DNA of 64,000 nt from Caulobacter endophyticus (GTDB taxonomy: Bacteria > Pseudomonadota > Alphaproteobacteria > Caulobacterales > Caulobacteraceae): contig NZ_QDKQ01000052.1 of the NCBI RefSeq assembly GCF_003116815.1, positions 62,001-126,000 of the forward strand. The letters are read 5' to 3'. Shown here in pieces: positions 31,576 through 41,386 of this stretch. The position numbers and the translations under genes were made by a program. Below the pieces are notes generated by a model. The model was given only the letters and a program-made list of their open reading frames with translations, had not been told where the DNA came from and made no database searches. The stretch's first letter is position 1; the number at the start of each line of letters is the position of its first letter.

Positions 31576-34404
31576 CTACTTGCGGGTCAGCACCACCGGC
31601 TTGCCGTCGTACTCCACCGTCAGGTCGGCCGCAGCGTCGAAGTCGGTCGGCTTTGCGCCCTTGCCGATGAAGCGGACGTTGAAGGTGCGCTTTTCCACCA
31701 GGCCCTTGAAGCCGCCCGAGCGAGCGCCGATCGTCACCCGGCCAGTGGCGTCGTCATAGGAGATCGGCGTGCGGGCCCAGGCGCCGCGGGCGTAGCCGTT
31801 GGACAGGCCGTCGTCTTCGTAGAGCTCGTACCTGCCGTCCTTGCCGGTGAACACCAGCAGGGTGATCGGAGCGTCGGGCTTCTCGCCGACATACTGCTGG
31901 ACGACCGTGGTCGGCACGATGGCGCCGGCCTTCACGAACAGCGGCATGCGGGCCAGCGGCGCGTCGGCCTTGACCGTCTGGCCGCCCTTGAAGGCCTTGC
32001 CCGTCTCGAAGTCGTACCAGGTTCCCGCCGGCAGGTAGACGCCGCGCGAGCGGGCCTTGAAGGCGGTGACCGGCGCGACCAGGAAGTCCTGGCCGAACAG
32101 GTACTGGTCGTCGACGTTCCGGGCCTTGGCGTCGGTCGGATAGTCCATCACCAGGCCGCGCATCATGCTGCCGTCGCGGTGATAGGTGTCGGCCGCCAGG
32201 GTGTAGACGTAGGGCATCAGCCGGTAGCGCAGCTCGTCGTACCAGGCCAGCGACTTGTAGATATCGCTGCCCTCGTCGGCGAGTTCGTAGATTTCGCGGA
32301 ACGGCAGCTCGCCGTGGCTGCGGAACAGCGGGCTGAAGGCGCCGAACTGGAACCAGCGCAGGTTCAGTTCCTGCCACTCGGCCCAGTGGGCGGGGTCCTT
32401 GGTCTCGTAGCGCTTCTCGACGGAGAAGCCGCCGATGTCGGTGGTCCAGTTGGGAATGCCCGACATCGACAGGTTCACGCCCGCCGAGATCTGGTCGCGG
32501 AAGTCGTCCCAGCGCGCCACCACGTCGCCGCTCCAGACCGCCGAGGCGTTGCGCTGCAAGCCGCCGAAGCCCGAGCGGGTCAGGATGAACGGGCGAACGT
32601 CCGGATTGTCCTTGATCTCACCTTCATAGACGCCGCGGGTGTGCTCCAGCGCATAGCTGTTGAAATACTCCGCGCCCGGGCCCAGCGCCGTCGGGCTCAT
32701 GCGCAGGGTGCGCTCTGGCACGTCGACGTTGGAGTGCAGGTCGGGCTCGGAGGCGTCCATCCACCAGGCGTCGACACCGTAAACCTTGAGGTCGCGCTTG
32801 ACCTGCTTCCAGTAGATGTCACGGGCTTCTTGGCTGTAGGGATCGTAGAACGAGTTCAGGTAGCCCGGGCCGACCCAGTCAAGCGCGCCCTGCTCGATAT
32901 TGCGCTTGTACATGTGGCCCTTGGCGTCCAGCTCCTTGAAGTTGTCCGTGGTCGGATAGAACTTCGGCCAGATCGAGATCATGAAGTGGGCGTTCATCCC
33001 GTGGATGTCGTCCACCATCTTCTGCGGGCTGGGGAAACGCGTTTCGTCGAACTTGTGCGTGCCCCACTCAGGGTCCTTCCAGTAGCGCCAGTCCATGACG
33101 ATGTTGTCGAGCGGCAGGCCGCGCCTGCGGTACTCCTTCACCACGCCGACGATCTGGTCCTGGGTCTCGTAGCGCTGGCGCGACTGCCAGAAGCCGTAGG
33201 CCCAGCGCGGCATCATCACCGCCGAGCCGGTCAGGTCGCGGTAGCCCGAGACGACCTGATCGAGGTCCTCGCCGCCGATATAGTAGTAGTCGATGGCCTT
33301 GCCGACTTCCGACGTCAGTTGCAGCGAGTGACGGTCCAGCGCCGGCATCGGGTCGTTGTGCAGCAGGCCGATATAGCCGTCGTCGGGCGTCCACTCGACG
33401 CGCACCTTGTGCTTCTTGCCCGGCGTCAGCTTGGCGTCGAAGTTGTGATACCAGGGGTTCCAGTTCTGCCGCCAGCGGTCGATGACCAGCTGGCCGTCCA
33501 GCCAAACCTTGGCGTAGCCGCTGGAATAGAGCTTGAAGTTGTGCTCGCCGGCCTTGTCGGTCTGGACGAAGCCCTCCCATGTCACGGTCTGGCCCGGCAG
33601 GTTCTTCTTGGCCGCGTCCTGCAACTCTCTCGGCCAGTTCGGCAGGTCTTTCAGGAAGCGGTAGTCGATGTCCTTCTCGACCCGCGTAACCTTCAGCTGG
33701 CCGTTCTGGTAATATTTGGCTGTGAAGCCGCCAACCTTGCCGTCGGCGTCGAAGATCTTCAGGTCGCGCGAGGCGACGTCGTAGGGGATCGGATTGCCGA
33801 AGCGGGTGATCGAGTTGTTGTCCCACAAGAGGCCGTAGCCCTTGGACGACAGCAGCATCGGCACGGCGATGGCGCGGTTGTACTGCAGCAGCTCCACGTC
33901 GCGGCCATTGTAGTTCATCTGGCCGTTCTGGTGCTGGCCAAGGCCGTAGAAGGCCTCGTCCGTGCCCGGATTGAATTGCTGGCGGACGGCGTAGAAGTCC
34001 TGCCCCTCGACCTTGACCGGCGTGAAGGCGCCGCGGTCGCGCTCGGCCAGCACCTTGGCGCCCTTGGCGTCGAGGAAGTCGACCGTGCCGTCCTTCAGCG
34101 AGACTTGCGCCGTGGCCTTGGCGGTTTTCAGCGTCAGCACCCCGCCCTTCTCGTCGACCGTGAAGCCGGTCGACACCGGCCTGGCCGTGACCATCAGGCT
34201 GGGCGGCGCGTCGAAGCTGTCGGTCGGCGAGGCGGTGACGTGGATGATCCGCTCGCCCATCACCTGCAGCCGCACCTTCCTGGCCGGACCCGAGGCGGGG
34301 GTCACGACCACGCCGTCGGCGGTCTTCTCGAAGCCGCCGTCGAGGGCGAAGGCGCTGGTCGAGGCCAGCAGGGCCAGGGCGAGGCCGGCGTAAAGACTGC
34401 GCAT
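31576..34404 (-). CDS. GH31 alpha-xylosidase-like glycosidase with inserted PA14 domain
   Basis: The 942-residue protein has a signal peptide ending near TSAFA (about residue 20). The N-terminal GH31 sandwich is interrupted by a PA14 domain at about residues 225-365 (FTAKYYQNGQ through YIGLLHNDPMP). The barrel contains LDNIVMDWRYW, and the nucleophile is Asp550 in AWWMDASEPD. ILTRSGFGG and WSGDVVARWDDFRDQ follow, then C-terminal sheet domains. A PA14-bearing GH31 is the layout of the xyloglucan alpha-xylosidase Xyl31A of Cellvibrio japonicus. Together with GH35 directly upstream, this favours removal of xylose from xyloglucan oligosaccharides (inference); alpha-glucosidase activity is the main alternative. 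Confidence 0.92.
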   Translation of the reverse strand: MRSLYAGLALALLASTSAFALDGGFEKTADGVVVTPASGPARKVRLQVMGERIIHVTASPTDSFDAPPSLMVTARPVSTGFTVDEKGGVLTLKTAKATAQVSLKDGTVDFLDAKGAKVLAERDRGAFTPVKVEGQDFYAVRQQFNPGTDEAFYGLGQHQNGQMNYNGRDVELLQYNRAIAVPMLLSSKGYGLLWDNNSITRFGNPIPYDVASRDLKIFDADGKVGGFTAKYYQNGQLKVTRVEKDIDYRFLKDLPNWPRELQDAAKKNLPGQTVTWEGFVQTDKAGEHNFKLYSSGYAKVWLDGQLVIDRWRQNWNPWYHNFDAKLTPGKKHKVRVEWTPDDGYIGLLHNDPMPALDRHSLQLTSEVGKAIDYYYIGGEDLDQVVSGYRDLTGSAVMMPRWAYGFWQSRQRYETQDQIVGVVKEYRRRGLPLDNIVMDWRYWKDPEWGTHKFDETRFPSPQKMVDDIHGMNAHFMISIWPKFYPTTDNFKELDAKGHMYKRNIEQGALDWVGPGYLNSFYDPYSQEARDIYWKQVKRDLKVYGVDAWWMDASEPDLHSNVDVPERTLRMSPTALGPGAEYFNSYALEHTRGVYEGEIKDNPDVRPFILTRSGFGGLQRNASAVWSGDVVARWDDFRDQISAGVNLSMSGIPNWTTDIGGFSVEKRYETKDPAHWAEWQELNLRWFQFGAFSPLFRSHGELPFREIYELADEGSDIYKSLAWYDELRYRLMPYVYTLAADTYHRDGSMMRGLVMDYPTDAKARNVDDQYLFGQDFLVAPVTAFKARSRGVYLPAGTWYDFETGKAFKGGQTVKADAPLARMPLFVKAGAIVPTTVVQQYVGEKPDAPITLLVFTGKDGRYELYEDDGLSNGYARGAWARTPISYDDATGRVTIGARSGGFKGLVEKRTFNVRFIGKGAKPTDFDAAADLTVEYDGKPVVLTRK

Positions 34405-34533: not shown

Positions 34534-36183
34534 TTAGTAGGTCGCCAGTTTCACCTTCAGGATCTGGGGCAAGGTGGTCAGGTTCAGGCCGTAGTCGACC
34601 TGGTCGCCGTTCCACACCCGGTCGAACACCCACTGGCCCGCCTCATCGAAGTGGCCTTCCTCGACCCGCGAGACCATGAACCGCTCGCCCTTGGCCGAGC
34701 CGAAGGTCAGGCGCGCGCGATAGCCGGTGACCAGGAACTCGTCGGGCGACAGCTGGGCGATCAGGGCGCCGGCGTCGGGGATCTCGCGGTCGGGCTGCTT
34801 CTCGGCCTTGGCCATCCACGGGGCCTCGATCGAGCCGAACTGCCACTCGCCATAGGTGACGCGTACGTTCCAGCGGCCGCCCAGATCGATGGTCTCCGGC
34901 TTGCCACCCTCCTGCTCGCCCACGCCCCAGACCTTGCCCTCGTAGGACAGACGCGCCCACTCGCGGGCCATCGGCGACAGCAGGCGGTAGTGGACGGCGA
35001 AGTTCTCCAGCGTCTTGGCGTCGACCGTCTTGGCGCCCAGCGGGTAGTTGGAATAGCCGGTGAAATCGAGGCCGAACGGGGCGAAGCCGATGCCCTGATG
35101 GCCCAGCACGTCGTAGATGTAGCGGGCATAGGCCTTGTCGCTGCCGATCTCGGGCACGAACAGGGCGTTGTCGGGACGGCCGTACTGCTCCAGCGTTTTG
35201 CGGACCTTCTCGCTCTCGCGCATGTAGATGTCGGGCGCCAGGGCGTCGATCGACGGCGCGGCGGCCTTCCAGACGTCGAGCACGTTCCAGGTCGGGCCGC
35301 CCGACGAATAGGTGAACGGGTCCTGGTCGTTGAAGGGGTCGCGCAGAGCGGCGTTGACGTACATCGGCAGCGGCAGCACCTGCTTGCCGGCGGCGGCGAT
35401 CTCGTCGACGTAGCGGCCGATCGACCAGGCGTAGAAGAACTCGTCGGCGTCCTTGCCGAACACATCCTTCCAGGTCCCCGGCTTCCTGTTCATCGCCTTG
35501 ACGAGCTCTTTCGGAACCGGGCCGTTGAAGATCTTCTGGGCGGTCGGCGAATAGTCGCGGACGGCGCTGTAGGCGCCGACCTCGTTCTCGGGCTGGACCA
35601 TGATCACGGTGTGGTCCGGATCGTTGGCCTTGATGAAGCGCATCAGCTCGACGAAGGCCTTCTTGTCGGCCTCCAGGGTCGCGCGGAAGTGCGGCGACAG
35701 CGAATTCTTGACCTCGCCCTTGCCGTTGATCAGGCGCGGGAAACGCTTGTTGTCGAGCTTGACCCATTCGGGCGCGTACTGCGGGCCGTTGTTCTTCCAG
35801 GTGGCGAACCACAGGATGACCAGCTTGGTGTCGTTCTCGCGGGCCTGCTTCAGCAGCAGGTCGAGATAGGAGAAGTCGAACTTGCCCTCGACCGGCTCGA
35901 TCTGCTCCCAGGCGATCGGGATCTCCAGGGTGTTGGCGTGCAGGGCCTTCACGGCCGGCCACACCTTGGGCATCTGCGAGGGATAGTTGGCGGCGTTGTT
36001 GGCCTGGACGCCCAGCATCAGGAACGGCTTGCCGTCGACCATCAGGGCGTGCCTGCCGTCCTTGGTCACCAGCCTCGGCAGTTGGCCTTGCGCGAACGAC
36101 GGCGCGGCGACGGCCAGGCTGAGGATCGCCCCCAGGGCGGCGAAGCCCTGCCGACCCCAGTTGGGCTTCCGAGAAGACGTCAC
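34534..36183 (-). CDS. GH35 beta-galactosidase (Bgl35A-like, with DUF5597)
   Basis: The 549-residue protein has a signal peptide ending near SFAQG (about residue 32). The GH35 barrel carries the acid/base Glu201 in VQPENEVGAY and the likely nucleophile Glu345 in FVPEIGSD. IPIAWEQIEPVEGKFDF near residue 90 is a family block. The C-terminal part (about 400-549) corresponds to DUF5597. Such enzymes remove galactose side chains from xyloglucan in Cellvibrio. GH31 follows after 129 bp and is probably cotranscribed. The released galactose could feed the nearby dgo operon. Confidence 0.92.
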   Translation of the reverse strand: MTSSRKPNWGRQGFAALGAILSLAVAAPSFAQGQLPRLVTKDGRHALMVDGKPFLMLGVQANNAANYPSQMPKVWPAVKALHANTLEIPIAWEQIEPVEGKFDFSYLDLLLKQARENDTKLVILWFATWKNNGPQYAPEWVKLDNKRFPRLINGKGEVKNSLSPHFRATLEADKKAFVELMRFIKANDPDHTVIMVQPENEVGAYSAVRDYSPTAQKIFNGPVPKELVKAMNRKPGTWKDVFGKDADEFFYAWSIGRYVDEIAAAGKQVLPLPMYVNAALRDPFNDQDPFTYSSGGPTWNVLDVWKAAAPSIDALAPDIYMRESEKVRKTLEQYGRPDNALFVPEIGSDKAYARYIYDVLGHQGIGFAPFGLDFTGYSNYPLGAKTVDAKTLENFAVHYRLLSPMAREWARLSYEGKVWGVGEQEGGKPETIDLGGRWNVRVTYGEWQFGSIEAPWMAKAEKQPDREIPDAGALIAQLSPDEFLVTGYRARLTFGSAKGERFMVSRVEEGHFDEAGQWVFDRVWNGDQVDYGLNLTTLPQILKVKLATY

Positions 36184-36454
36184 GCGAGAACCTCCATGCT
36201 GGCGAACCGGTCGGAACCTATGCCTGCATCGATCGCCCTCGGCGGAAAGTAAGCGCTGTCAATCAGGATGGACATCCGTTCGCCTCCTCCCCATTCCGGC
36301 GGACGCGCGAGAGACTTCAGCCCCGCCAACTCGTTACCGCTACCATTCTTATAAATAGGACAATTAGCCGAGGCGGCCGCGATTGCAACCGGTTTTCACG
36401 GTGCGGCCTGGACGCATGAACGCCGGCAAACCTTTGTAACGATTGCGAAAAGGC
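36184..36454 (-). promoter_or_regulatory. GH35 promoter region with two LacI-like operator sequences
   Basis: CGTTACCGCTACC at 36332-36344 matches the GH3/GH97 operator at 10 of 12 core bases. AGTAAGCGCTGTCA at 36248-36261 is a weaker match to the TGATAGCGCTATCA motif found at the TonB receptor. Between them lies TTATAAATAG (36349-36358), which could hold a -10 element on the minus strand. The region is bounded upstream by the terminator at 36455-36494. Binding is inferred only from motif similarity. Confidence 0.4.
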
Positions 36455-36494
36455 AAAAAAAATCCGCGCATCGCCCGCAGGAGGCGATGCGCGG
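36455..36494 (-). terminator. Strong rho-independent terminator (candidate sRNA / halogenase 3' end)
   Basis: On the minus strand CCGCGCATCGCC and GGCGATGCGCGG form a perfect 12-bp stem with a 7-nt loop, followed by ATTTTTTTT. On the plus strand the tail is only TTGAAAA, so the minus direction is the functional one. It lies 272 bp after the halogenase stop, too far for a simple terminator of that gene alone. Confidence 0.88.
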
Positions 36495-36602
36495 TTGAAA
36501 AGACTCGCGCGGAACCGGGGAGGTGGTTCGCGCGGCGCGCTGGCAAACCTCGCAAGAGGATCGCACGGCCGGACAGTCGCTTTCGCGACCCCGGCGCCAC
36601 GG
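36455..36602 (-). ncRNA. Candidate small RNA with CCUCCCC loop
   Basis: No convincing ORF covers this interval. On the minus strand a plausible promoter (TTGCGT at 36631-36636, TATACA at 36610-36615) would start a transcript near 36602. It would hold a GTCGC-GAAA-GCGAC hairpin (36576-36589) and a second hairpin (36506-36534) whose loop reads ACCUCCCC, complementary to Shine-Dalgarno sequences. It ends in a 12-bp terminator with eight Us. This layout matches alphaproteobacterial trans-acting sRNAs with anti-SD loops. A LacI-like operator is just upstream of the promoter. The alternative is a long structured 3' UTR of the halogenase mRNA. Confidence 0.42.
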
Positions 36603-36609
36603 TCAGATA

Positions 36610-36656
36610 TGTATAATCATACAAATGAATACGCAAGGGACTTGATAGCGTTGTCA
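36610..36656 (-). promoter_or_regulatory. Candidate sRNA promoter with LacI-like operator
   Basis: TGATAGCGTTGTCA at 36643-36656 differs from the perfect palindrome at the TonB receptor (TGATAGCGCTATCA, 41373-41386) at two positions. Downstream on the minus strand lie TTGCGT (36631-36636) and TATACA (36610-36615) with a 15-bp spacer. TGTATAATCATACA at 36610-36623 is a further small palindrome over the -10. The promoter boxes follow general sigma-70 rather than Caulobacter-specific consensus, which weakens the call. Confidence 0.4.
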
Positions 36657-36765
36657 GCCCATTTTTTGCGCCTTCCCGCCTCAGCGCGGCAATCTTGGGC
36701 GATGAAGCCCTCACCAGCGGGCATGGCCTCGGCGGAGGGGCGTCACTCCCCCTGCCCCGCCCGGC
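36657..36765. other. Short gap after the halogenase gene
   Basis: This is the first 109 bp beyond the halogenase stop on the minus strand. It holds no gene that I can support and no T-tailed hairpin. The possible frames read as arginine-rich shadows. Confidence 0.4.
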
Positions 36766-38280
36766 TCAGCCCAGCGGCGCGGCGGCGCAGTGGCGGGCGA
36801 TGAAGGCCGCCTGCGTGGGCATGGACTGGGCCGTATGCCGGATCAGCGCCCGGCGATGCTCCATCAGGCGGCGCAGCTCGGCCTCGGGAATGCGGTCGGC
36901 CAGCGGGTCGTAGGCCTCGGGCACGACGCCCAGGCCGTTGTAGATCGAGATCCAGCTGGGCCGCGCGAAGCCATCGCCCTCCAGGATCGCCACATGGCCG
37001 CGGGCCTTGTAGAGCGCGATCTTGGCCTGCAGGCTGTCGGGCAGCTCGACCTCGCGCACCTGCCGCCACATCGGCTCGTCCCGCTGGTTGATGCAGTAGT
37101 GCAGGATGATGAAGTCGCGGATGCGCTCGTACTCCTGGGCCGAGACACGGTTGAATTCATCGGCCAGAAGCGGGTCGCAACGGCGGTCGGGGAAGAATTC
37201 CAGAAGCCGGGCTATGCCGTTCTGGATCAGGGCGATCGAGGTCGATTCCAGCGGCTCCAGGAAGCCGCCCGACAGGCCCACGGCCACGACGTTGCGGTCC
37301 CAGAACTTCCTGCGGCGTCCGGCCAGGAAGCGCAGCGGGCGCGGATCGTCCAGCGCCTCGCCGTCGAGGTTTTCCATCAGGGTGCGGGCGGCGCGCTCGT
37401 CGTCGACGAAGGCGCTTGAATAGACATAGCCGTTGCCGGTGCGGTGCTGCAGCGGAATGCGCCACTGCCAGCCGGCCTCGCGCGCGGTCGAGCGGGTGTA
37501 GGGCGTCAGGCCGTCGCCGCCCGTCCGGCACGGCACGGCCAGGGCGCGGTCGCAGGGCAGCCAGCGCGACCAGTCCTCGAAGCCGGCCTTCAGCGTCCCC
37601 TCGATCAGCAGGGCGCGGAAGCCCGAGCAGTCGACGAAGAGGTCGCCCTCCACGCGGCGACCGTCCTCCAGCACCACCGCCTCGACGAAGCCGTCCTGCC
37701 CGCGCACGGCGACGTCGACGATCTTGCCCTCGGTGCGCGTCACGCCCTGCGCCTCGGCATAGCGGCGCAGGAAGGCCGCGTAGAGCCCGGCGTCGAAATG
37801 GTAGGCGTAGGCGTAGTCGTGCAGCGGCGAGCGCGGGTCGGGGCTCGGCGGGATGAAGCGGTTCAGCATCGCCGCCGCCGTCGGCAGAGACCAGTCCTCC
37901 AGGCCGCCGGTCTCGCCCAGGGTCCGCAGGCGGCCCCACAGCTGATGCGCCTGGACGGCCGCGTGGTCGGCGCCGAAGTCGCCGAAGCCGTGGAAGTATC
38001 GATGGCCCACCCGCCCCCAGTCGCGGAAGTCGATGCCCAGCTTGAAGCTGGCCTGGGTGGCGCGGATGAACTCGACCTCGTCGAGGCCCAGCTTTTCGTT
38101 GAAGTTGCGGATGGTCGGGATGGTGGCCTCGCCGACGCCGACCGTACCGATGGCCTCGGACTCGACAACCTCGACGCTTACCGCGTCACTGACCAGCAGC
38201 CGGCTGAACGCCGCCGCCGTCATCCAGCCGGCGGAGCCGCCGCCCACGACTACGACCTTGCGAATGCGCTGGTCCACCAC
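36766..38280 (-). CDS. Tryptophan-halogenase-like flavin-dependent protein (TonB-linked type)
   Basis: The 504-residue protein begins with the FAD motif VVVGGGSAGWMTAA. It has GVGEATIP near residue 49, catalytic-type Lys80 in SFKLGIDF, GWQWRIPLQHRTGNGYVYSS near residue 269, and Glu345 in LEPLESTSIA, matching Lys79 and Glu346 of PrnA. The key residues for halogenation are therefore present. Such genes recur beside TonB receptors in Caulobacterales, and a relative from Brevundimonas brominates indole, but the natural substrate is unknown. Two GTG codons compete for the start (38280 and 38277); GGAGG fits the second better. It lies 115 bp after the TonB receptor, beyond a strong terminator. Confidence 0.88.
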   Translation of the reverse strand: MVDQRIRKVVVVGGGSAGWMTAAAFSRLLVSDAVSVEVVESEAIGTVGVGEATIPTIRNFNEKLGLDEVEFIRATQASFKLGIDFRDWGRVGHRYFHGFGDFGADHAAVQAHQLWGRLRTLGETGGLEDWSLPTAAAMLNRFIPPSPDPRSPLHDYAYAYHFDAGLYAAFLRRYAEAQGVTRTEGKIVDVAVRGQDGFVEAVVLEDGRRVEGDLFVDCSGFRALLIEGTLKAGFEDWSRWLPCDRALAVPCRTGGDGLTPYTRSTAREAGWQWRIPLQHRTGNGYVYSSAFVDDERAARTLMENLDGEALDDPRPLRFLAGRRRKFWDRNVVAVGLSGGFLEPLESTSIALIQNGIARLLEFFPDRRCDPLLADEFNRVSAQEYERIRDFIILHYCINQRDEPMWRQVREVELPDSLQAKIALYKARGHVAILEGDGFARPSWISIYNGLGVVPEAYDPLADRIPEAELRRLMEHRRALIRHTAQSMPTQAAFIARHCAAAPLG

Positions 38281-38395: not shown

Positions 38396-41242
38396 TTAGA
38401 AGCTGGCGCGCAACGCCACGGCGACGCGACGGTCGGTCTCCACCCAGTTGTAGGGGGCGACGCGGTCGGGGTTGCCGACCTCGAGCACGGTGCGTTCCTT
38501 GAGGATGTTGGTCGCCTGGACGCCGACCTTGTACTGCTTGTTGATGCTGTAGAAGATCGAGCCGTCCAGCTGGCCGTAGTCACGCGACCAGACCGGGGCG
38601 TTGACGTTGGCGGCCGAGCTGGTCAGCAGGTAGCGCTGGCGCCAGTTGTAGGCCAGGCGGGCCGAGATGCCATACTTCTCGTACATCACGGCCACGTTGT
38701 AGCTGCGCGACGACATGCCTTCGAGCGGCAGGGCGGCGTTGTCGGCGCCCCCCGTCTGGTTGGTGTCGTCCACGTCGACGGCGGTGTTGCGGCCGCCCTC
38801 GTTGTCGATGAACGTGTAGTTGGCCTGCACGCCCAGGCCCGACAGCGCGCCCGGCAGGAAGTCGTAGAACTGCTGGTAGCCGATCTCGAAGCCCTGCACC
38901 GAACCCTTGTCACCGTTGTAGTAACGCATGACTTCGAAGTCGAAGGTCTGGCCGTTCGAGGTGTAACGCTCGGTGGCCGTGTCGGTGAAGATGTAGTCCT
39001 TGATGTTCTTGCGGAAGACCGCGAACGTCAGGCTGCCCGTGGGGGCGAAGTACCACTCTGCGCTGAGGTCGAACTGGTTGGCCTTGATCGGGCGCAGGTT
39101 CGGGTTGCCGCCGGTGCCGTTGGCGCCGTTGTAGACCGTGGTCGTGCCCGAGGTCGTGAAGTCGAAGCCCAGGGCCGTATACGGCTGCAACTGCGACAGG
39201 GTCGGACGGACGATGGCCTTCGACGCGGCGAAGCGCAGTTGCAGCTGCGGCGTGACGTGCAGGCGCAGGTTCAGGCTGGGCAGCACGTCGGTGTAGTCGG
39301 ACTTGGTGCTGCCGGAGACGATCGTGCCGCCGGCGGCGAAGGCCTTGGCGGCCGCGCAGGTGGCGTTGGTGAGTTCATCGCAGGTAGGCGACGAAGGCAC
39401 GATGCTGCCGCCGTCGGCCGAGGCCTCGGTCTTGACCACGCGGATGCCGATGTTGCCGTCCAGCGGCATGTCGCCGAACAGGTTGTCCGAGCCGAAGCGC
39501 AGCAGGCCGTAGCCGGCGTAGGTCTTCTCGTTCTGGGTGTTGTCGTTGGCGTCCAGGAACGAGGTCACCGGCGACCAGCCCCAGCCGGCCGTCTCGGTGT
39601 CCTTCAGCAGGTCGTAGGCGTGCTGCGAGCCGTTGGTGACCACCGCGGCGGTCGGGAACCAGGCCACGCCGGGCACGCGCACGTCGCCGCCGAAGAAGTT
39701 CTTGAAGGTATAGAGCTCGGTGAGGTTCGCCGTCTTGCTGTCAGTCAGGTAGACCGGCGTGCCGCCGCCCCAGTACTGGGCGCTCAGCAGGCTCCAGTTC
39801 CAACCGGACTCTCGGGTCTCGAAGTCCTTGTCGGTGGCGCGGACGCCGAAGCGGAAGCTCTTGAGCCAGCCATCCTCGGGGAACTCATAGGTCACGTCCA
39901 GGCGGGCGACCTTCTCGGTGGCTTCGCTCTGGTCGATGTGATCCATCGCCGCGCCCCAGTAGTACTGGTCCTTGACGTAGGTGTTGTTGGCGCCGATCGT
40001 CGTGACCGTGGGCACGCTGGTGCCAAGGTTCCAGTTGACGTCCGGCAGGTCGCCGTCGACGCCGGCGACGTCCTGCAGCTGGGTGAAGACCGTCAGGCTC
40101 GAGGTCTTCGAGGTCGACTTCACATATTGCAGGTCGCCCGAGATGGTCAGGGCGTCGTTGACGTACCACTTGCCGTTCAGGGCGATGTCGCCCGTCTTCT
40201 TGTGGCCTTCGCCGGCGCGGGTGTCGGCGGTGTACTGGGCGTCATAGACGGTGCCGCCGGTGAACACGCCGGCCGAGTTGTAGGTGTAGCCGTCGGCGTT
40301 CGACTGGTTCATCGTGTTTTCGACGAGGGCGGCGCGCTCCAGATCCTTGGGATCGGCCTTGGAGCCCATGGCCTGCAGCGAGAACTCGAACTTGTCGTTC
40401 GGACGCCATTGGGCGGCGAAGGCCAGCGACTGGCGCTTCTGCTCCCAGTCCACCGAACGCCAGCCCATGGCCTTGGGCACATAGACGGTCTTGCCGTTCA
40501 CGGTCATCGGGTCGTAGCGGTCGACCGAGATGCTGTTGGTGCGGTTGCCGACGCTGCCGTAGCTGTAGGCGATCAGGGCGCCGAACTCGCCGAGCTTGGT
40601 GTCCCAGCGGTCGCTGGCGATCACGTTGCCCGAGTAATAGCCCTTCTTCTGCAGTTCGCCGTAGTTGTAGTCGCCCGAGAAGGCCAGCAGGCGCCCCTTC
40701 TGGTCGAACGGCAGGCGGGTGCGCAGGTTGACCGTGCCGCCGATGCCGCCTTCGATCATGTCCGACGACGGGTTCTTGTAGACGTCGACGCCGGCCAGCA
40801 GGTCGGCAGACACGTCTTCGAAGCTCAGGCCGCGGCCGTTCTTGGCCGAGAAGATGTCACGGCCATTGGTCTCGGAACGCACCCACGACAGGCCGCGAAT
40901 GGCCACGCCGCCGCCTTCCGCGGCCATCCGGGCCGGGTCGCGCGCTTCGTTGGTGCGTTGCAGGGTGATGCCCGAGATGCGCTGCAGGGCCTCGGAAACC
41001 GAGCGGTCCGGCAGGGCGCCGATATCGACCGCGGTGATCGAGTCGACGATCACTTCGGCGCTCTGCTTGATCTTCTGCGCGGACTGGATCTGGGCCCGCT
41101 GACCGGTGACCACGACCTCTTCGACGGTCGTGTCGGCGGGCGCTTGAGCGCCCTGCGCCAGCGCTGTCAACGGAGCCACGGCGCAGAGCGCCAGGACCGA
41201 AGCGCCGAACATGAAACGATGTGAGTTATGAAGGCGTCGCAT
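38396..41242 (-). CDS. TonB-dependent receptor, large carbohydrate-type
   Basis: The 948-residue protein starts at an ATG with GGAAGGA upstream and has a signal peptide ending near TALAQ (about residue 30). EEVVVTGQRAQIQSAQKIK (about 41-59) is the TonB box and linker. The plug contains LPDRSVSEALQRISGITLQR and IEGGIGGTVNLRTRLPF. The barrel ends in RRVAVALRASF with a terminal Phe, as needed for Bam insertion. Long receptors of this type import oligosaccharides in Caulobacter and Xanthomonas, such as maltodextrins via MalA. The GH35/GH31 context suggests xyloglucan fragments. The promoter region carries a perfect LacI-like palindrome. Confidence 0.94.
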   Translation of the reverse strand: MRRLHNSHRFMFGASVLALCAVAPLTALAQGAQAPADTTVEEVVVTGQRAQIQSAQKIKQSAEVIVDSITAVDIGALPDRSVSEALQRISGITLQRTNEARDPARMAAEGGGVAIRGLSWVRSETNGRDIFSAKNGRGLSFEDVSADLLAGVDVYKNPSSDMIEGGIGGTVNLRTRLPFDQKGRLLAFSGDYNYGELQKKGYYSGNVIASDRWDTKLGEFGALIAYSYGSVGNRTNSISVDRYDPMTVNGKTVYVPKAMGWRSVDWEQKRQSLAFAAQWRPNDKFEFSLQAMGSKADPKDLERAALVENTMNQSNADGYTYNSAGVFTGGTVYDAQYTADTRAGEGHKKTGDIALNGKWYVNDALTISGDLQYVKSTSKTSSLTVFTQLQDVAGVDGDLPDVNWNLGTSVPTVTTIGANNTYVKDQYYWGAAMDHIDQSEATEKVARLDVTYEFPEDGWLKSFRFGVRATDKDFETRESGWNWSLLSAQYWGGGTPVYLTDSKTANLTELYTFKNFFGGDVRVPGVAWFPTAAVVTNGSQHAYDLLKDTETAGWGWSPVTSFLDANDNTQNEKTYAGYGLLRFGSDNLFGDMPLDGNIGIRVVKTEASADGGSIVPSSPTCDELTNATCAAAKAFAAGGTIVSGSTKSDYTDVLPSLNLRLHVTPQLQLRFAASKAIVRPTLSQLQPYTALGFDFTTSGTTTVYNGANGTGGNPNLRPIKANQFDLSAEWYFAPTGSLTFAVFRKNIKDYIFTDTATERYTSNGQTFDFEVMRYYNGDKGSVQGFEIGYQQFYDFLPGALSGLGVQANYTFIDNEGGRNTAVDVDDTNQTGGADNAALPLEGMSSRSYNVAVMYEKYGISARLAYNWRQRYLLTSSAANVNAPVWSRDYGQLDGSIFYSINKQYKVGVQATNILKERTVLEVGNPDRVAPYNWVETDRRVAVALRASF

Positions 41243-41336
41243 GCCTGTTTCCTTCCCCCGTGAGTGAAAACCGCCCCGGCGTTCTCATCGGCGCCGGTGA
41301 CGTGCGGGACCAGGGCCCCACACAATCTGATTGGTA

Positions 41337-41386
41337 GCTATAGTCATATAATTGTGGTCATCAAGATAAAATTGATAGCGCTATCA
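41337..41386 (-). promoter_or_regulatory. TonB-receptor promoter with perfect LacI-type operator
   Basis: TGATAGCGCTATCA at 41373-41386 is a perfect 14-bp palindrome with a central CG, typical of LacI-family operators. Nine bases further on the minus strand is TTGATG (41359-41364), then TATAGC (41337-41342) with a 16-bp spacer. The operator upstream of the -35 box is the same layout as at the candidate sRNA promoter. Confidence 0.6.

Follow-up and report, generated by a model that had tools for sequence, protein, structure and literature searches.

The locus raises the question of whether the gap between a halogenase gene and a beta-galactosidase gene of Caulobacter endophyticus encodes a regulatory RNA of its own. 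We call the window the whole stretch of 64,000 nt of DNA that was analyzed. The genes that surround the gap are as follows.

31576–34404 (−): GH31 glycosidase with a PA14 domain (domain search)
34534–36183 (−): GH35/GH42-like beta-galactosidase with DUF5597 (DUF5597 3.9e-36, GH42 8e-9, GH35 3e-6)
36180–36275 (−): 31-codon upstream ORF, ending in a TGA that overlaps the GTG with which the GH35-like gene starts
36766–38280 (−): FAD-dependent ‘tryptophan halogenase’ (PF04820), directly upstream of the RNA
38396–41242 (−): TonB-dependent receptor (PF00593 and PF07715), upstream of the halogenase and the RNA

The sequence-only reading had placed an operator, promoter boxes, a hairpin displaying ACCUCCCC and a terminator with eight Ts at 36455–36656 on the minus strand. 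All of these elements were found there, and in related genomes they form one conserved unit with the following layout.

36643–36656 (−): TGACAACGCTATCA, an operator of the LacI-family type located ahead of the −35 box (pattern counts and copies in relatives)
36610–36636 (−): promoter, TTGCGT (36636–36631), 15-nt spacer and TATACA (36615–36610), within the conserved motif TATGATTATAC
36455–36602 (−): predicted small RNA of ∼148 nt (start placed from the promoter, fold z-score, matches to covariance model R1)
36576–36589 (−): GAAA-capped 5′ hairpin, present in near relatives only and missing in more distant copies
36543–36564 (−): another 5′ hairpin, in which near relatives show two-sided changes
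36503–36536 (−): hairpin displaying ACCUCCCC (loop 36524–36517), a conserved anti-Shine-Dalgarno element with invariant UCCC and a covarying stem
36455–36494 (−): intrinsic terminator, 13-bp stem (36494–36464) followed by A and T8 (sequence, terminator scan, modeled pairs)

Judging by the promoter boxes, the RNA would be expected to start near 36602. Two details of the earlier description needed correction: the terminator, with its eight Ts, has a stem of 13 pairs rather than 12, and the GAAA-capped hairpin, though present, is a property of the near relatives of the window (seven sequences, one of them with GAGA). The 148-nt RNA was predicted to fold at −76.4 kcal/mol (z = −3.9), better than 200 of 200 shuffled sequences. 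A terminator scanner applied to positions 36200–36800 found one terminator, with 0.8 expected from shuffles; thus the terminator taken alone is not significant. A generic sigma-70 scanner found no promoter at the RNA unit; therefore, the promoter call rests on conservation. It is conservation that makes the strong evidence for the unit, because 21 of 75 genomes of the genus score 72 bits or more with R1, a covariance model of the 3′ module of the RNA built from 14 sequences (we call matches at this level strong).

That its stems and loop should be conserved had been named beforehand as one of the points on which the RNA would stand or fall. In the alignment the stems covary and all 14 sequences have the same loop core, UCCC; the longer CUCCCCG is nearly invariant, and the flank of the loop changes from ACCUCCCCGG to CUCUCCCCGA. 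Standard pairs fill 96.6% of the stem cells (93.2% in shuffles). There are 10 cells with two-sided changes versus 4.5 in shuffles, and the covariation score is 0.175 versus 0.121; for both measures none of 500 shuffles was as high. Neither the tally of pairs that show a two-sided change (4 versus 2.9; 104 of 500 shuffles) nor that of further pair types in the stems (67 of 500) was significant. In the stem of the ACCUCCCC hairpin four pairs have changed on both sides among the 14 sequences, while the modeled terminator pairs are standard in 100% of cells. Within the second 5′ hairpin, pairs 43–58 and 46–55 each show two-sided changes in two of the seven near-relative sequences. Conservation along the unit peaks at the operator, the promoter, the hairpin and the terminator; it is low in the 5′ half of the RNA, which differs in the more distant copies.

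The 21 genomes with strong R1 matches, own genome included, are accompanied by 27 further matches in the genus that score below 50 bits. A blastn search with the region gave matches in 23 of 150 genomes, a count that includes the own genome; the 23 belong to one genus. In the own genome the region was found at one place. Over 390 genomes of the family, R1 gave four weak matches outside the genus, none of them convincing among the three that were read: these three (L332–L334) have chance-like terminators and do not recognizably follow a receptor gene (the fourth, in G190, was left out of the reading). No match to the RNA region was seen in the plasmid collection. Scanning named genomes with a DNA pattern proved too loose to be of use; among the matches listed, most were chance-like and came from unrelated phyla. 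As far as searched, then, the predicted RNA appears to be confined to Caulobacter.

An orthologue of the GH35 gene (62% identity or more) was found in 30 genomes, with the RNA at the locus in 23 of them (20 strong forms, two 3′-UTR forms and one diverged copy). In the seven loci that lack the unit, the distance from the halogenase end to the start of the GH35 match is 143–208 nt, compared with 582 nt in the window, and neither the operator nor the −10 motif of the RNA was found in that gap. Among the 45 genomes with no GH35 orthologue, the RNA was seen at the locus in one (G045), adjoining GH31 and the halogenase. We annotated 20 loci from 20 of the 23 genomes matched by blastn (the own locus is represented by the window, and G056 and G072 were excluded). 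Every one of the 20 has a TonB-dependent receptor on one side of the RNA and GH35 and/or GH31 on the other, and the halogenase is present in 16. L153 has GH31 only, L159 and L160 have GH35 only; there are also a few loci for which the crude gene caller gives GH31 alone though the GH35 orthologue search finds GH35 there. Genes of the galactonate pathway (DgoK, KDPGal aldolase, sodium:solute symporter, GntR) are usually located divergently beyond the receptor. Genome G063 has the RNA type of the window and a GH35 protein 91% identical; its receptor is 50% identical to that of the window and 79% identical to that of L148. By such sequence comparison, receptor types appear to have been swapped between species while the putative RNA stayed. 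The synteny supports a view of the RNA as a discrete, conserved unit tied to a carbohydrate-uptake locus.

The operator connects the predicted RNA with the receptor. The operator pattern TGNTANCGNTNNCA occurs in the 64-kb window at two places (three matches when strands are counted) versus 0.10 expected, and none of 100 shuffles of the window reached three matches; a looser search, with up to three mismatches, gave five matches, a weak signal, as 3 of 100 shuffles had as many. Among stand-alone copies, TGAYARCGCTATCA was found in 19 of 21, and in 19 of these 19 it is positioned 35–37 nt ahead of the −10 motif; the diverged copy in G031 has TGAYARCGCTATCA 37 nt ahead of this motif. The separate promoter motif is kept in 21 of 21 stand-alone copies, while G020 and G022 have kept the promoter and the RNA and miss the operator. 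One of the two places in the window is the following site.

41373–41386 (−): TGATAGCGCTATCA, a perfect palindrome within the TonB-dependent receptor's promoter region, with a layout resembling that of the RNA promoter

This palindrome is present at the receptor promoter in 18 of 20 loci of relatives as well as in the window, and a TATAYGAYTATAG-like motif follows it at a similar distance (altered in L153, L154, L159 and L160). Since operator and layout are common to the RNA and receptor promoters, one LacI-family protein probably controls both, that is, the predicted RNA is probably co-regulated with the receptor. The operator is rare: the own genome has it at four distinct places, two of them in the RNA/receptor locus, with none for the reversed pattern, and the seven genomes searched have two to four distinct places each, one in G020, with no place for the reversed pattern in any of the seven. 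Among the places read, five outside the locus precede ORFs that we take to encode GH43 or GH39 glycosidases; the place on G000:C7, in the own genome, is among unrelated genes. There are 11 LacI-family genes in the own genome, none of them on the contig of the RNA, and the regulator may be encoded by one of the 11. An operator upstream of the −35 box does not, by position alone, imply repression. The GH35 gene of the window has its own promoter-like boxes, TTGTCC...TATAAG, located after the RNA terminator, and next to them is another site.

36332–36345 (−): LacI-type operator-like site TGGTAGCGGTAACG, different from the first and positioned shortly after the −10 box of the GH35 promoter, with three mismatches to TGGTAGCGCTACCA

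DNA looping between the RNA operator and the GH35 operator was considered and set aside; start-to-start distances vary from 233 to 311 bp with no common helical phase.

The RNA module does not always stand alone. In genomes G002 and G012 it follows the receptor stop codon, the halogenase is absent, and neither the promoter motif nor the operator pattern was matched in the 400 nt before the module; by this arrangement the module in these two genomes is the predicted tail (3′ UTR) of a receptor mRNA. In G020 and G022 the receptor that precedes the RNA has an extra module, with a CCUCCCCGA loop and a terminator. We inspected 20 of the 27 weak R1 matches: 18 come right after the stop codon of a receptor gene, one is unrelated, and the remaining match is the diverged stand-alone copy in G031. 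The receptors upstream of the 18 matches were recognized by C-terminal sequence or by locus annotation, and the two in the own genome were confirmed by PF00593. By reading of their C-termini they make up only four or five lineages; therefore, the 18 matches are not 18 independent events, and the score of such weak matches comes partly from the terminator. The own genome (5.4 Mb) has 114 PF00593 matches, corresponding to about 112 TonB-dependent receptors. Hairpin loops with CUCC or CUUCC within 130 nt after the stop codon were found at 16 of 112 receptor ends versus 7 of 191 non-receptor genes (p = 0.0012), several of the 16 being unconvincing by eye; Shine-Dalgarno-like loops, too, are slightly more frequent at receptors (5 of 112 versus 4 of 191). 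This enrichment is suggestive only, a lead rather than a result. One could speculate that Caulobacter receptor mRNAs carry anti-Shine-Dalgarno modules at their 3′ ends, that these would act as sRNAs silencing competing receptors or other Shine-Dalgarno-led genes, and that the RNA of the window would be an autonomous version placed under the LacI-type control of the receptor, the two states interchanging between species; we hold this idea tentatively, with the odds against it.

An Rfam search and a covariation analysis had been proposed as checks on the unit. Along with the covariation described above, the search gave no match in the window at gathering score. The best match was to RF02344 ar14, an alphaproteobacterial sRNA, with 25.6 bits and E-value 0.006 (gathering score 58.8); the two RNAs are alike in CU-rich loops and a terminator, but the score is far below gathering and the alignment contains several mismatched pairs. 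The predicted RNA resembles SisA–D/alphaR8 (the MmgR family) in two respects, as its 3′ end is formed by an intrinsic terminator and its anti-Shine-Dalgarno core is CU-rich. Still, identity with this family was rejected as the 10-nt core UUUCCUCCCU is absent; that core is single-stranded in the family, whereas CUCCCCG is located here in a hairpin loop, and the genomic place is different, the RNA here sharing its operator with the receptor operon. In the own genome UUUCCUCCCU is found at four other places (two for the reversed control), followed in two cases by a terminator-like hairpin, and members of the alphaR8/Sis family likely sit elsewhere in the genome. SisA of C. crescentus carries an anti-Shine-Dalgarno core, likely its means of repression, and a receptor mRNA and xylX are among the targets that it represses (PMC12559287). 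CrfA, the carbon-starvation sRNA, comes from the same genus and is also carbon-linked; it is described as having a G/A-rich loop with which it sponges Sis RNAs by pairing with their CU-rich cores (PMC12559287), whereas the loop of the RNA here is the C-rich ACCUCCCC, not a G/A-rich loop complementary to the Sis core.

A likeness in the way of working, with no relation claimed, can be drawn to RsaI, an RNA of another organism. CcpA, its regulator, is a member of the LacI family. RsaI of Staphylococcus aureus is sugar-responsive and CcpA-controlled and pairs with Shine-Dalgarno sequences, including that of a glucose-uptake gene; it differs in being repressed in glucose excess (PMC9266662). In the part of the open-access literature covered, mostly titles and the beginnings of abstracts, we found no description of the RNA; an orthologue in C. 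crescentus may already be annotated as an uncharacterized transcript. The unit does have the sequence features of a trans-acting base-pairing sRNA, namely its own promoter, an intrinsic terminator and a conserved exposed seed, and we judge it to be a real, new family of putative anti-Shine-Dalgarno sRNAs.

Target prediction used leaders with crudely assigned gene starts (longest ORF, in-frame starts scanned). Among 219 leaders of the own genome, 42 of them of receptors, the one predicted to pair best with the loop belongs to the halogenase in the same operon (CCGGGGAGG, −24.4 kcal/mol), and receptor leaders took ranks 3 and 4. Taken as a class, receptors were not better predicted targets than other genes (p = 0.72). 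Only some near relatives of the window keep the halogenase pairing, at equal strength in G005 and over a shorter stretch in G010; the more distant loci that were read do not show it. Over 20 loci, the leaders of the receptor, halogenase, GH35 and symporter families of the locus average −13.2 to −14.3, compared with −11.6 (sd 4.0) over all 230 leaders. The sequence CGGGGAGG precedes ATG at 44 places in the own genome versus 9 for the reversed pattern, though at least 5 of the 30 matches read represent one element at contig ends. No conserved target was found among the leaders of the 20 loci, the 219 own-genome leaders, the halogenase leaders and the genome-wide CGGGGAGG matches, and we therefore claim none. 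Thus, of the earlier interpretation, the discrete conserved RNA unit, the LacI-type operator, the anti-Shine-Dalgarno loop and the carbohydrate locus hold, while repression of uptake or hydrolase genes received no support from target prediction. Pairing between the terminator loop and the GH35 leader was dropped from consideration, as it would require an opened terminator stem. One of the dozens of CGGGGAGG leaders is at G000:C37:13469 (L355), where the sequence is 5 nt before ATG and complementary to the RNA loop; the gene there is presumably ctrA.

The reading that we favor, with a probability of about 0.62, is that of an independent, trans-acting sRNA of ∼148 nt that is controlled by a LacI-family protein together with the receptor operon and whose loop blocks Shine-Dalgarno sites. 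In the mechanism that we infer, the operator adjoining the −35 box on its upstream side would be bound by a LacI-family regulator, which would control transcription of the RNA and of the TonB-dependent receptor operon together, so that the RNA would appear when the sugar of the receptor is available, probably a galactoside-containing plant oligosaccharide. The exposed loop, with its core CUCCCCG, would pair with G-rich Shine-Dalgarno sequences and block translation of a set of mRNAs, which may be those of competing uptake genes or, as feedback, of genes of the own locus. A Shine-Dalgarno site is reported in only 24.6% of C. crescentus coding sequences (PMC4117421); thus, an anti-Shine-Dalgarno loop could be selective. 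Which of the ∼112 TonB-dependent receptors to make is a regulatory choice for the cell. A sugar-controlled, receptor-linked RNA that reaches Shine-Dalgarno-led mRNAs would, if true, couple choosing one nutrient to repressing others. Within one genus, the locus also offers three states for comparison: the RNA carried in a receptor 3′ UTR, the RNA as an autonomous gene equipped with a regulator site, and loci that lack the RNA.

Could the module be mainly a terminator, an insulating 3′ end of the receptor–halogenase operon with hairpins that serve termination and stability of the mRNA 3′ end and have no action in trans? The copies behind the receptor stop codon in G002 and G012, where neither promoter motif nor operator pattern was matched in the preceding 400 nt, agree with such a role, as do the similar modules that end other receptor mRNAs; however, it would leave without explanation why stand-alone copies keep a promoter motif in 21 of 21 cases and an operator in 19, why an invariant loop core and a covarying stem, which a terminator does not need, are found upstream of it, and how seven loci manage with no module. 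We consider this role rather unlikely. A cis-acting leader or attenuator for the downstream GH35/GH31 genes would fit the position of the RNA, upstream of GH35 on the same strand, and also the Shine-Dalgarno sequence of the GH35 upstream ORF, GGGGAGG, which in the window is complementary to the RNA loop (the match is shorter in relatives). Yet this explanation is very improbable given that, past the terminator, the window shows promoter-like boxes for GH35 itself together with a different operator, and that seven relatives have GH35 behind the halogenase with no RNA between.

The CU-rich loop might alternatively make the RNA a sponge or decoy that titrates a G/A-rich RNA such as CrfA rather than mRNAs. 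CrfA does pair with CU-rich cores through its G/A-rich loop (PMC12559287), but the RNA here lacks the 10-nt core UUUCCUCCCU, and this 10-mer is found elsewhere in the genome; we see the sponge as improbable. As for a chance array of GC-rich hairpins in an intergenic gap, the empty generic promoter scan and a terminator count close to expectation are what one would see in such a case; conservation in 21 genomes, near-fixed spacing and covariation contradict it, and it is hardly credible. The independent, trans-acting sRNA remains our preferred reading.

Several features of the locus and of the genome are worth recording in their own right. The upstream ORF before GH35 has 31 or 32 codons in the window and four relatives and 18 codons in G004 and G063; its stop overlaps the GH35 start in near relatives as well, and translational coupling of the two genes is possible. 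The receptor/halogenase cassettes of L148–L167 look exchanged between species (receptors 37–97% identical), and the GH35 pattern differs from this. The Shine-Dalgarno region of the receptor, 41247–41260 (−), contains GGGGAAGGRA in almost every locus that was read, loci with diverged receptors included (L157 and L158 were left out of this survey); it is positioned behind a 5′ UTR with conserved-looking hairpins.

Elsewhere in the own genome, a likely alphaR8/Sis paralogue at G000:C71:200982 (L367, around 1500) has TTTCCTCCCT and a terminator, with a LacI-operator-like TGGTAGCGCTAACT ∼40 nt upstream of the core, and is located behind an ORF resembling a GH2 glycosidase; it is perhaps a second sugar-controlled anti-Shine-Dalgarno RNA. 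A likely alphaR8 copy at G000:C33:67776 (L365) has a palindromic GACAACGCTGTC upstream of TTGC...TATAAG, an arrangement like the operator–promoter layout of the RNA in the window.
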